In this document: positions 34,128-53,103 of the stretch, one piece after another
Position numbering within the stretch: position 1 is the stretch's first letter
Layout: each line of letters begins with the position of its first letter
NCBI GenBank assembly: GCA_016213825.1
Contig: JACQZP010000011.1
Span: 124,001-188,000, forward strand
From: Acetobacterium woodii
GTDB taxonomy: Bacteria > Bacillota > Clostridia > Eubacteriales > Eubacteriaceae
Length of the DNA stretch: 64,000 nt
Direction: 5' to 3'
Position numbers and translations under genes: made by a program
Notes under the pieces: generated by a model
Databases searched by the model: none
What the model saw: only the letters and a program-made list of their open reading frames with translations
Told to the model about the DNA's origin: nothing

Positions 34128-35465
34128 ATGAGTATTCGTTTTGATCTCTCTTATGCAAATATAGACCCCAGTGAATTTGAAAATCGTTTTGACCAATTGG
34201 CCAAAGCCAATGAGGATTTAATGAACAAGACTGGAGTCGGTAACGATTTTCTGGGGTGGGTGGATTATCCCCTGGAATATGATAAAGAAGAATTTGCTCG
34301 AATTAAAACAGCGGCAAAAAAAATACAGAATAAATGCGATGCTTTGGTGGTGATTGGTATTGGCGGATCTTACTTGGGCTCGAAGGCAGTTATTTCGGCT
34401 TTGACCAGTCCCTTTTATAATGAAGAACCCCGTTCAAAAAGAAACGGTCCTAAAATTTACTTTGCCGGTCAAAATATCAGTGGAAAATATCTGGAAAACC
34501 TGTTGGCTTTATTACAGGATCAGGAAGTTTGTGTTAATGTTATTTCCAAATCTGGGACAACCACCGAGCCAGCGATGGCCTTTCGATTCTTCAAAAAATT
34601 TCTGGAAGAAAAATACGGAAAAGCAGAAGCCAAGGAACGAATCTTTGTAACAACGGATCAATCCCGAGGGGCCTTGAAATTTATGGCCGATGAAGAGGCG
34701 TATGAAACCTTTGTGATTCCCGATGACATTGGCGGACGCTACTCTGTTTTTACCGCTGTGGGACTGCTTCCCATCGCCGCTGCGGGAATCGATATTGATG
34801 CCTTGATGGATGGTGGAAAATCCGGCTTTGAGGATTATAAGAAACCGAAGTTTGAAAAGAACCCCTGCTATCAATACGCGCTGTATCGTAATGTGCTTTA
34901 TAATCGGGGCAAAAATATCGAAATTTTGGTTGATTATGATCCTTCACTGGAGTATTTGGCAGAGTGGTGGAAACAGCTATTTGGTGAAAGTGATGGAAAG
35001 GACGGCAAGGGTCTTTTTCCAGCCGCGGTTCATTTCTCCACCGATCTTCACTCCCTGGGGCAGATGATTCAGGATGGCCCTAAAAATCATTTCGAGACTC
35101 TGATTGTTATTGATGAAGACCAGTCAAATCTCAAAGTCTTTCGGGACGAAAAGAATCTAGAAGGTTTGAATTACCTTGACAGTTGGGAAATTGATGCCAT
35201 CAATGAAAAAGCCTATATGGGAACGCTTTTGGCGCATGTTGACGGTGGCGTTCCCAATGGAATCATTCATCTCAAAAAGCTGGACGCCTTTCATATTGGC
35301 AAACTGATTTACTTTTTCGAAAAGGCCTGCGGCTTAAATGGCTATCTGTTAGGGGTTAATCCCTTTGATCAGCCCGGCGTCGAAGCCTACAAAAAAAATA
35401 TGTTTGCGCTGCTACATAAACCCGGCTATGAAGACTTAACGGCCGAATTGGAAGAACGGCTATAG
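34128..35465 (+). CDS. pgi: Glucose-6-phosphate isomerase
   Basis: This cytosolic enzyme interconverts glucose-6-phosphate and fructose-6-phosphate. The sugar-phosphate-binding [19 protein letters not shown] and [15 protein letters not shown] motifs are present, with [17 protein letters not shown] (the PGI signature). The C-terminal active-site lysine falls in [16 protein letters not shown]. The 445 residues match Firmicutes PGIs. AAGAAAGG precedes the ATG. It is separate from the glycolytic operon but carries the same repeat element upstream. A terminator follows closely. Confidence 0.96.
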
Positions 35466-35480
35466 AAAACCGCTAGATAA

Positions 35481-35513
35481 AAAACTCGTCATTTGTTAAA
35501 TGATGAGTTTTTT
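35481..35513 (+). terminator. Terminator after pgi
   Basis: AAAACTCGTCATTT-GTT-AAATGATGAGTTTT hairpin with one G-U pair, then T-run. Confidence 0.9.
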
Positions 35514-35573
35514 ATTTACTTTTATGTCATTTCATACTATTATATAGAACAGTATAAAAAATATGAAAATTTA

Positions 35574-35602
35574 TTGACAAATGCAAGATGGAATGTTACA
35601 AA
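35574..35602 (+). promoter_or_regulatory. Candidate promoter of the riboswitch/EAL transcript
   Basis: TTGACA (35574-35579), 17-nt spacer, TACAAA (35597-35602). The perfect -35 carries most of the weight; the -10 is weak. It would give a leader of about 190 nt containing the c-di-GMP aptamer. Confidence 0.45.
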
Positions 35603-35694
35603 TATGATGCAACATTGTTGGATAAAAAATATAAGTCATGTTTGCTAATTTGCGGAGAATAATCTTTGTTCTAGAAGTCTCCAGTCGCAAATGA

Positions 35695-35780
35695 TAATCG
35701 AATCAAGGGCAAAACTGTTGTGAAGCAGTGACGCAAAGCTAAAGGGACTTTTATAAGTCAGCCAGTTACTCAAATAAGTT
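35695..35780 (+). ncRNA. Cyclic di-GMP-I (GEMM-I) riboswitch
   Basis: The aptamer hallmarks are in order: AGGGCAAA (35706-35713), a hairpin CTGTT-GTGA-AGCAG (35715-35728) with a GNRA tetraloop, then GACGCAAAGC (35730-35739). A second hairpin follows, AGGGACTT...AAGTCAGCC, and then AGTTAC. This matches the class I c-di-GMP riboswitch in core, loop and receptor layout. No terminator lies between the aptamer and the GGAGG at 35791, so control is probably at translation. It sits directly before a c-di-GMP phosphodiesterase gene. An additional imperfect hairpin (35647-35692), containing TCTCC complementary to GGAGG, precedes the aptamer. Confidence 0.88.
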
Positions 35781-35800
35781 TAACGATTTAGGAGGTAGTG

Positions 35801-37309
35801 GTGAATTATAGTGAAAAAAAGTCTTTAACCATTAGTTTTGCTTTATTTTTTTTGGTAGTCTTGATCAGTTTTTTAAATTATCTTTCGATTTCACGGACCT
35901 CGTATTCAGATATGATCAGCATTGGTTTTTATGGTCTGGCTTTTACCGGGATGTTTGTGATTACCATCCTTAGTAATACTGCAGTTCGTGAAGTTAAGAA
36001 TGAAATAAACGAGATAAAAAAAATGCAGGATTTTGATGCCTTGACGGGCAGTCCCAATGGCATTAAATTCAGCCGCGATTGTGACCAGACCCTTAAAGCG
36101 AATCGGGATCATCGTTATGCAATAAGTATTTTTGATATTAATAAGTTCAAAGCGATCAATGATTTATTTGGTCGTCAGGTCGGCAATGAGATTCTTACGG
36201 CAATAGCCCAGATTCTTAAAAAACATATCAGAGATGATGAGTTGTTCTCCAGAATGGCCACCGATAATTTCAGTATTTTAATGAAATACGAAACGTACCG
36301 AGAATTTACGCTGCGGATTGAAAATCTGATTCATGAGATCAACGGCTATTCCAACCAATTCGTTGTCAGTATTTCGCTTGGCATCTATCTGATTGGCGAT
36401 GATGATCGGGAGCTGGATGTCAATGCCCTCAGTGATCGTGCCAATATGGCCAAATGTTCCATTAAAGATAATTCGCAAGTGAGCTATGCTTTTTATGATG
36501 AAGCCATGCGACAGCTGATGATCATTGAGAATAGTATTGAAAATCGAATGGAATTGGCATTAAAAAATAATGAGTTTGAAGTTTATCTTCAACCCAAATA
36601 TTTATTTTCTGATGAAAAAATAATCGGGGCTGAAGCACTGGTTCGCTGGAATGATCCAGTTAATGGCATGTTGCCGCCCAATGATTTTATTCCTTTATTT
36701 GAAAGAAATGGATTTGTCAAAAAAATCGATACCTATATGTTTGAAGAAGTATGTAAACTGCTTGATAAGTGGAAAAATGAAATGAATCAATTAGCGGACA
36801 TCATCATTTCAGTTAATTTTTCACGTCTGCACTTGGATAATTTATTGTTACCCGAAGAACTGAGTGAAATCACCAGTCGATACCAGATCGACCCGAAAAT
36901 GATTGAAATTGAGTTGACCGAGGGCACGATATTTGATAATGATGCTCAAATGATTGATATCATGAATCATTTAAAAGACTTTGGGTTTAATATTTCCATC
37001 GATGATTTTGGTCGGGCATATTCGTCACTAAATACGCTGAAAAATCTGCCGGCAGATATTTTAAAGCTGGATAAGGCTTTTTTTACCGAATCGTCCGATA
37101 ATCAGCGCGGCAAAAAAATTATTACCAGCATGCTGAATATGGCCAAAGATCTCGATCTGATCACGGTCGCCGAAGGGGTCGAAACAAAAGAACAGGTCGA
37201 TTTTCTCAAAGGGCTGGGGTGTGATATTGCTCAGGGCTTCTATTATGCCAAACCCATGAATGTGATTGAATTTGAAGCATTTGTCAACAAAAAACTGAAA
37301 TCAGCATAG
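35801..37309 (+). CDS. Membrane GGDEF-EAL protein, probable c-di-GMP phosphodiesterase
   Basis: Two N-terminal membrane helices (about residues 9-31 and 38-60), a GGDEF domain (about 75-230) and an EAL domain (about 245-495). The GGDEF active-site loop reads MATDNF at 153-158, so cyclase activity is probably lost. The EAL domain keeps EALVRW, VNFSRLHL, ELTEG, IDDFGRAYSSL, LKLDKAFF, VAEGVE and QGFYYAKPM, which are the metal-binding and catalytic positions, so it should hydrolyse c-di-GMP. GTG codons occur at 35798 and 35801; GGAGG spacing favours 35801. A c-di-GMP-I riboswitch lies immediately upstream. Monocistronic, with a terminator overlapping its stop. Confidence 0.9.
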   Translation: MNYSEKKSLTISFALFFLVVLISFLNYLSISRTSYSDMISIGFYGLAFTGMFVITILSNTAVREVKNEINEIKKMQDFDALTGSPNGIKFSRDCDQTLKANRDHRYAISIFDINKFKAINDLFGRQVGNEILTAIAQILKKHIRDDELFSRMATDNFSILMKYETYREFTLRIENLIHEINGYSNQFVVSISLGIYLIGDDDRELDVNALSDRANMAKCSIKDNSQVSYAFYDEAMRQLMIIENSIENRMELALKNNEFEVYLQPKYLFSDEKIIGAEALVRWNDPVNGMLPPNDFIPLFERNGFVKKIDTYMFEEVCKLLDKWKNEMNQLADIIISVNFSRLHLDNLLLPEELSEITSRYQIDPKMIEIELTEGTIFDNDAQMIDIMNHLKDFGFNISIDDFGRAYSSLNTLKNLPADILKLDKAFFTESSDNQRGKKIITSMLNMAKDLDLITVAEGVETKEQVDFLKGLGCDIAQGFYYAKPMNVIEFEAFVNKKLKSA

Positions 37310-37326
37310 GCCGATTTCAGTTTTTT
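37295..37326 (+). terminator. Terminator overlapping the EAL gene stop
   Basis: CTGAAATC (37295-37302) pairs with GATTTCAG (37313-37320), then six T. The stop codon lies in the loop. Confidence 0.85.
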
Positions 37327-37348: not shown

Positions 37349-37807
37349 TTATTCAGTGGCGTTTTCGAAATTAAGACCGCCGCAGGTGATATCAGCAAAA
37401 ACTGAAAGGGCTACTGCATTTTCAGGATCTTGACAAACCGTATTATCGGCGATGCCGCCAAATTTACAGGAATCCGTAATCTTTAATTTAAAATGATCGG
37501 GAACAATAATATTCATTCCGCCGTTGACGATGTTAACATCCATCCGGTAGTGATCTTTGTCGGTAACAACATCTGAAAAATCAAGCTGCATGCCGCCAAA
37601 AAAGGCGCCAAGTTTCAAGTCCCGCATGGTTTGATCATTGTAGTCCTTTAGCTTTCCGCCGTAAAGAACGAACTCGTCCATCGATTCCGGGCTCTTATCA
37701 AGGCCTGCTTCGAATTCTTTGGCTTTGTTAATAACACAGGCATGATAAAGAGCCATGCCGGTTGCAAAAACAACACCTGTTCCGATGAGGATATTTTTTA
37801 TTTTCAT
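37349..37807 (-). CDS. Membrane-anchored LiaF-like C-terminal domain protein
   Basis: 152 residues with one N-terminal membrane helix (about 5-23, IKNILIGTGVVFATGMALYH). A short charged linker follows, then a repetitive beta-rich domain: LGAFFGGMQLDFSDV, MDVNIVNGGMNIIVPDHFKLKI, and TCGGLNF. The recurring G-G-M-x-x-x-(V/F)-P pattern resembles the LiaF/DUF2154 right-handed beta domain of cell-envelope stress sensing proteins. No LiaRS-type two-component genes are adjacent. AAGGAT precedes the ATG on the minus strand. The assignment is by pattern; function remains unknown. Confidence 0.65.
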   Translation of the reverse strand: MKIKNILIGTGVVFATGMALYHACVINKAKEFEAGLDKSPESMDEFVLYGGKLKDYNDQTMRDLKLGAFFGGMQLDFSDVVTDKDHYRMDVNIVNGGMNIIVPDHFKLKITDSCKFGGIADNTVCQDPENAVALSVFADITCGGLNFENATE

Positions 37808-52758: not shown

Positions 52759-53103
52759 GATTTAGTAAATCAGATAGTCGCACCCGGAGTAATCCGGTTG
52801 AGGAAAGTCCGAGCTCCGCAGAGCATGGTGCCGGGTAACACCCGGTGGAGGCGACTCTAAGGCAAGTGCAACAGAAAGTATACCGCCAGCAATGGTAAGG
52901 ATGAAAGGGTGAGGTAAGAGCTCACCAGCGGTGTGGTGACATATCGGCTATGTAAACCCCACCTGGAGCAAGACCAAGAACGGACCAAGAAAGACGGCTG
53001 CTCGTCGTTGTCCTATGGTAGGTCGCTAGAATTTATTGGTAACAATAAATCGAGATAGATGACTATTTAAACAGAACTCGGCTTATAGATTTAGTAAATC
53101 ACA
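52759..53103 (+). ncRNA. rnpB: RNase P RNA, A-type
   Basis: This is the catalytic RNA that matures tRNA 5' ends. Conserved blocks in order are GAGGAAAGTCCGAGCTCC near 52800, GTGCCGGGTAACACCCGG, AGTGCAACAGAAAG with ACCGCC, the GGTGAGGTAAGAGCTCACC hairpin, and ACAGAACTCGGCTTATAG near the 3' end. The P1 strands (GATTTAGTAAATC) occur at both ends. Layout and the AGTGCAACAGAAAG block indicate the ancestral A-type found in most Clostridia. Ends are estimated from P1 to within a few bases. Confidence 0.95.

Follow-up and report, generated by a model that had tools for sequence, protein, structure and literature searches.

A class I c-di-GMP riboswitch aptamer is found directly before the gene of a membrane GGDEF-EAL protein, a predicted c-di-GMP phosphodiesterase (PDE), in the Acetobacterium woodii window (the whole 64 kb stretch of DNA analyzed here). 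The first-pass annotation read this as a riboswitch-PDE linkage, and the reading is supported by conservation of the aptamer in 11 of 11 orthologs of the genus. Folding models suggest, with moderate confidence, a translational switch turned ON by the ligand, a predicted sign that would place the PDE in negative feedback. The features of the locus, by position in the window, are:

34128-35465: upstream gene, before the riboswitch-PDE unit
35474..35518, + strand: predicted intrinsic terminator at the end of the upstream gene (terminator scan), separating it from the riboswitch-PDE unit
35574..35602, + strand: possible promoter TTGACA-N17-TACAAA, weak, read from the sequence and outside the consensus-scan sites
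35698..35773, + strand: class I c-di-GMP (GEMM-I) riboswitch aptamer, RF01051, 57.7 bits (gathering score 35)
35709, + strand: G at the Vc2 G20 position, a ligand contact (RF01051 alignment)
35761..35770, + strand: masking strand GCCAGUUACU, which within the aptamer belongs to the base of P3, with predicted SD-to-start pairing in the consensus free fold
35769, + strand: C equivalent to Vc2 C92, the expected pairing partner of c-di-GMP; paired with the Shine-Dalgarno (SD) sequence in the free fold, P = 1.00
35790..35795, + strand: SD sequence AGGAGG
35801..37309, + strand: membrane GGDEF(degenerate)-EAL protein, predicted c-di-GMP PDE; preferred start GTG 35801, the open reading frame opening at GTG 35798
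36032..36469, + strand: GGDEF domain (PF00990, 78.1 bits), motif ATDNF instead of GGDEF
36545..37255, + strand: EAL domain (PF00563, 224.3 bits), nine examined residues intact
37292..37326, + strand: inverted repeat (11 bp) and T run, likely terminator, at the stop codon of the PDE gene

The start codon is, from the sequence, more likely the second GTG (35801) than that at 35798, since it gives better SD spacing and the ATG of L024, the most divergent ortholog, is situated at that place. The riboswitch-PDE unit is probably monocistronic because a terminator-like site is present upstream (35474-35518) and the inverted repeat with its T run is found at the stop codon. The terminator scan of the PDE gene 3′ end gave no site within its 8-nt loop limit; the repeat at 37292-37326 has a 10-nt loop. 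TTGACA is not seen at the aligned place in the three orthologs compared (L016, L017, L018). Another candidate, an upstream structured element (leader hairpin TTTGCGGAGA...TCTCC..CGCAAA), was rejected; by eye it is partial in a 97% ortholog and absent from the others. On the minus strand at 37349-37807, convergent with the PDE gene, the window carries a protein with a LiaF-like C-terminal domain, and, by eye, DNA resembling this region is also seen after the ortholog in some genus members. An RNase P RNA, bacterial class A, is present at 52762-53101 on the plus strand (285 bits).

A class I aptamer had been placed at 35695-35780 in the first-pass annotation, which proposed a covariance-model search for GEMM-I. 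That search was positive: the RF01051 match at 35698-35773 spans the whole model, all 87 positions, with E = 1.1e-8 for the 64 kb window. It is one of two gathering-level Rfam matches in the window, c-di-GMP-I and RNase P. The distance to the ribosome site, earlier given as 10 bases, is corrected to 16 nt, counted from the end of the match at 35773 to the AGGAGG start at 35790. The ligand contacts G20, A47 and C92 (Vc2 numbering) are all present (in GGGC, GCAAAG and GUUAC). C92 is kept in 10 of the 11 orthologs and is U in L024. Scores for two sub-families stay under their gathering scores: c-di-GMP-I-GGC (RF03167) gives 52.1 bits for the window locus against 59, and c-di-GMP-I-UAU (RF03168) gives 59.5 bits for L024 against 65.9. 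Judged by its sequence, the window aptamer is a real class I c-di-GMP aptamer, predicted to bind that ligand. An A at position 20 is the defining change of the c-AMP-GMP variant (GEMM-Ib); all 11 orthologs have G there, and c-AMP-GMP was rejected as ligand on this ground. A passage in PMC9481103 is in line with this definition of the variant.

The protein search covered 41 genomes, 19 of them of the host genus, and gave 11 genus orthologs including the window's own (L014). Orthologs are found in 11 of the 19 genus genomes with 58-100% identity. All 11 leaders show an aptamer match with E = 8.1e-8 or lower. RF01051 above cut-off is shown for seven of these (L014, L016-L020 and L022); in the ortholog search a sub-family model fits better in L014, L015, L021, L023 and L024 but is below that model's cut-off. 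L025, a 44% homolog from another genus searched alongside, shows no aptamer match in its leader. The start codon is GTG in 10 of the 11 orthologs, with its G pairing with the GCC strand. In the most divergent ortholog (L024:1392-1467) the ligand-pairing C is replaced by U, the start is ATG and the SD-masking helix is missing; the aptamer end folds against its own codons instead. A related-locus search of genome contigs gave 23 loci, none with more than 42% identity, and may have left out near relatives; these 23 loci are the source of the ordinary SD-start regions for the 105-gene comparison below.

The EAL domain had also been described as intact, and this is borne out by the 224.3-bit match and by nine residues that do not vary among the 11 orthologs (E278, N339, E371, E374, D401, D402, K422, E458 and Q478, numbered from 35801). 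The importance of these nine residues for catalysis is established for the family. The GGDEF motif is degenerate in every ortholog, ATDNF in 10 and STDNF in one, and the cyclase motif GG(D/E)EF is absent from all 11. Two hydrophobic stretches are present at the N-terminus, where the 19-residue windows that show them start at residues 6-15 and 38-40. Among solved sequences the nearest is 4rnh (MorA; E = 6.4e-67), a GGDEF-EAL protein deposited as a motility regulator. The two proteins share the GGDEF-EAL tandem and their EAL residues align, whereas the window protein has ATDNF for GGDEF and the two N-terminal hydrophobic stretches. The plain reading is that of a protein that probably works as a PDE and lacks cyclase activity. 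The degenerate GGDEF would also suit a c-di-GMP-binding receptor or trigger enzyme that is not a working PDE, with a loop that is regulatory and not degradative; however the invariant EAL residues and the closeness to 4rnh, a GGDEF-EAL motility regulator, speak against this, and it is considered very improbable.

No terminator-like site is found between the aptamer and the gene, either in the terminator scan of the window locus or by eye in the orthologs. Control is therefore probably translational, and transcription attenuation at the PDE gene is rejected on the same ground. In the RNAalifold consensus of the 11 leaders, the aptamer segment GCC-GUUACU pairs with the last two G's of the SD through the start codon. 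In this helix 93.9% of cells pair, against 68.7% or 72.9% when the strands are slid by 3 and less at other slides. There is no two-sided covariation in the masking helix among the 11 leaders; all variation is one-sided and the aptamer side hardly varies. Single-sequence free folds give P(C92-SD) of at least 0.92 in 10 of the 11 and 0.13 in L024.

In the proposed mechanism, the aptamer 3′ strand, which includes the ligand-pairing C, would in the absence of ligand mask the region that reaches from the end of GGAGG to the GTG by pairing with it. Rising c-di-GMP would capture that C and stabilize the aptamer, and the masking helix could not form. The SD would then be freed, ribosomes would translate the EAL phosphodiesterase, and the enzyme would lower c-di-GMP. 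An ON switch on this gene thus means a negative feedback loop. The sign had been left open in the first-pass annotation, ON giving negative feedback and OFF a bistable switch; comparative folding favors ON, as a prediction and with some signs for the rival.

For the bound state the aptamer helices were enforced and C92 was blocked, in a model free of any term for ligand energy or tertiary contacts. Going from free to bound, GGAGG gains at least 0.24 in unpaired fraction in 8 of 11 orthologs, e.g. from 0.41 to 0.87 in L014. The remaining values are 0.79 to 0.75 in L021, 0.79 to 0.81 in L023 and 0.51 to 0.46 in L024. Opening of the start codon shifts by less than 0.1 in 7 of 11, and the masking result varies with the modeled 3′ end of the RNA.

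Leaving ligand and tertiary contacts aside, stability favors the free model over the bound one by 5-17 kcal/mol, and this modeled gap leaves doubt over equilibrium switching. Kinetic control is likely, since the aptamer is made before the SD. The same strong preference for the free form, with masking of the SD that may be too tight at equilibrium, would suit an aptamer that binds c-di-GMP but acts through transcript stability, Rho or pausing and not through SD masking, and effects at the mRNA level would be invisible from sequence. But the aptamer-to-SD distance and the complementary spacer are conserved and no intrinsic terminator is found in the leader, so that this route is considered improbable.

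The masking pairing was compared with shuffled and ordinary sequences. When linker and downstream sequence are shuffled, P(C92-SD) reaches 0.9 in 0-12% of cases (8 of the 11 orthologs, 150 shuffles each; L015, L019 and L023 were left out as near-duplicates). Values of at least 0.9 are obtained in 28-100% of variants with synonymous recoding of the first codons and in 69-95% of variants with linker-only shuffling, both over the seven tested orthologs that have C at this position. As recoding and linker shuffles often keep the pairing, the signal is mainly in the SD-start segment itself. Its complementarity to the aptamer strand is matched or beaten by the SD-start regions of 4-16 of 105 other genes (7 of the 11 orthologs) and by 2-7 of 31 other SD-start regions (all 11 orthologs). 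The SD-start complementarity is thus only moderately unusual and, taken alone, suggestive. The whole leader folds no better than shuffles (z = −0.86).

The main rival to the ON reading is an OFF switch, in which the ligand would favor a P1-like helix of the 5′ flank with the ribosome-site segment or beside it, giving a positive, possibly bistable loop. Class I switches can be OFF, as for Cd1 and for Vc2 as described in the relevant passage of PMC9262584. Immediately ahead of the SD there is a short complement of the 5′ flank, which measures 5 bp in L014 and L015, is longer in L016, L018, L019, L021 and L022, and touches the start of AGGAGG in some orthologs; by eye, L014 and L016 keep one flank pair through G-C versus A-U. 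When the RNA is cut 15 nt past the SD start, the flank in the bound state pairs with spacer and start, with at least 2 pairs expected in 7 of 11 (L014, L015, L016, L018, L019, L020 and L022). With 45 nt, however, most of this pairing is lost: L016 retains 2.3 expected pairs, and a weak remnant of about 1 is seen in L018 and L019. The flank helix is also weak or absent in L017, L020, L023 and L024 (−0.1 to −2.6 kcal/mol). In 10 of the 11 bound 45-nt models GGAGG is at least 0.64 unpaired, and with a longer flank AGGAGG is at least 0.53 unpaired in 10 of 11. An OFF switch is considered unlikely, although it is the strongest of the alternatives.

The host genome carries 13 class I aptamers over cut-off. 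Downstream genes, assigned by open reading frame lists and Pfam scans of most first genes, are:

FliK-FlgD-FlgE/F/G-FliM operon: 1 aptamer
Prepilin-peptidase gene in an apparent pilus cluster: 2 aptamers
Beta-helix protein: 4 aptamers in tandem
ChW/beta-helix protein: 1 aptamer
PepSY protein: 1 aptamer
Pilin-like genes: 2 aptamers, the second by eye
1907-aa PKD/Y_Y_Y protein: 1 aptamer
GGDEF-EAL PDE of the window: 1 aptamer

Of the first genes examined behind aptamers, none but the PDE gene belongs to c-di-GMP metabolism. In contrast to the PDE locus, the two aptamers of the pilus locus are each followed by a terminator-like site. The earlier statement that the genome carries a full flagellar locus has partial backing: CheA, FliD, FliF and a FliI-type ATPase are found among 10 window open reading frames scanned, the names FliI and CheA being a reading of domain matches. 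The same contig also encodes FliK, FlgD, an FlgE/F/G-type protein and FliM, about 55 kb before the window; these are preceded by another aptamer. About 530 nt separate the class I aptamer at L102:3638-3724 (G000:C35:68637-68723) from the FliK-FlgD operon that it precedes, and this interval contains a terminator-like site (L102:4054-4073).

The four tandem aptamers before the beta-helix protein are at L097:7525-7962 (G000:C10:299524-299961, minus strand) with 67.7-75.6 bits, and no terminator-like site is seen on the minus strand in L097:5700-8200. Similar runs of four aptamers are found at G018:C552:3825-4262 and G007:C27:1312-1853. Two tandem class II c-di-GMP riboswitch matches, with 46.2 and 51.8 bits against a cut-off of 53.5, are found at L103:3506-3719 (G000:C10:470505-470718) before a 619-aa open reading frame that starts like a secreted protein.

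A motif survey of the loci gave 39 distinct aptamers, 17 of which have an SD and start within 60 nt. These consist of 10 PDE leaders and seven others with CCGAAAGG, in which the aptamer abuts the SD. In the seven non-PDE leaders, which are from the same genus, the pairing probability of C92 with the SD is at least 0.60 in six and 0.09 in L076. The proteins behind these seven leaders look secreted, two by Pfam and five by their N-termini. The leaders of L097, L075, L076, L080, L093 and L095 end in CCGAAAGGA(G) with a tiny hairpin, and the ligand-pairing C can pair with the SD. SD masking in secreted-protein leaders would fit the expected ON control of surface proteins at high c-di-GMP.

Aptamers were found in 39 of 67 genomes of the order that were searched. 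Twenty of these are among the 48 genomes outside the genus, and the 20 hold 76 aptamers and 138 EAL matches (fragments included). Seven of the 76 aptamers are just upstream of a same-strand EAL gene in four other genera (coordinates compared by eye), where chance would give about 0.2 pairs, an estimate that takes roughly one gene per kb and about 57 Mb. The seven come from all four aptamer-bearing g5 genomes, probably one lineage, and from G033, G035 and G057; in G057 an open frame extends across the aptamer, with the probable start about 97 nt past it. The GEMM-I aptamers of L120-L126 are directly before EAL genes of PAS-GGDEF-EAL, GGDEF-EAL and REC-GGDEF-EAL type.

The protein in g5, a sister genus, differs from that of the window and is PAS-GGDEF-EAL (L120). 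The g5 aptamer 3′ strand pairs with the SD-to-start segment, with C92 at 0.99, 0.97 and 0.80 in L120, L121 and L123, and in these three the unpaired fraction of the SD goes from 0.25-0.31 in the free state to 0.48-0.51 in the bound state. SD-start complementarity in g5 is matched by 0-3 of 105 other genes (three of the four leaders, with L122 left out). L122:494-580 is a 47-bit g5 aptamer with an altered P3 end and may be decaying. In G033 and G057 a terminator adjoins the aptamer, and in L126 the terminator is drawn in both free and bound states; the sign at terminator-bearing EAL loci is possibly different. A wider reading is put forward tentatively, as somewhat less than an even chance: EAL PDE genes in the order would repeatedly be under c-di-GMP riboswitches (five genera), an arrangement that would act as RNA homeostat. 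The ligand-pairing C would, in at least two genera, also be part of the strand masking the ribosome site, so that messenger and ribosome would compete directly and the signal would induce its own destruction, while other genera may have the opposite sign by way of terminators.

GEMM elements upstream of cyclase and PDE genes are mentioned in reviews that cite Sudarsan 2008 (PMC3971182, PMC12564702); in the passages concerned neither names a case like the window locus or gives a switch direction for PDE genes. Riboswitch control of c-di-GMP metabolic genes is called rare in a passage of PMC6366702. In C. difficile, where type I riboswitch targets are treated in part of PMC3649979, a section of PMC6200980 has one PDE gene decreasing with c-di-GMP and a tendency to increase for several others, and that section does not mention a riboswitch on a PDE. 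An ON and an OFF switch of the class I type are both described as sequestering the ligand-pairing cytosine in a passage of PMC9262584; Vc2 is called OFF there and ON in the corresponding passage of PMC12564702. Class I tandems are counted as 347 doublets and 12 triplets in an excerpt of PMC9481103. The main text of the A. bakii transcriptome study (PMC6239172) has no mention of c-di-GMP, and the portion of PMC9495176 drawn on here has nothing on PDE targets. The titles and abstract starts listed from open-access literature showed no experimental work on PDE genes under a c-di-GMP riboswitch. Riboswitch-PDE pairs are thus known in principle and described as rare, and the window pair is a real, conserved further case. 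Such a conserved pair would give compact second-messenger feedback that needs no protein regulator, and would tie the aptamer-bearing surface-protein, pilus and flagellar genes of the genome to a built-in signal limiter.

Compared with the c-di-GMP-I family (RF01051), the window aptamer is alike in its whole-model match above cut-off and in the ligand-contact positions kept. It is unlike the family in its short P3 arm, whose 5′ strand can also pair with the first codons when the RNA is in its free fold, and in the nearness of the ribosome site. Cd1, the flgB-operon riboswitch of C. difficile described in parts of PMC9262584 and PMC3649979, is also a class I aptamer whose ligand-binding C is paired in an alternative fold. 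However it acts on flagellar genes as a transcriptional OFF switch, whereas the window leader has no terminator and is situated before a PDE gene. The class I aptamers before cyclase and PDE genes noted in the passages of PMC3971182 and PMC12564702 show the same arrangement in kind as the window.
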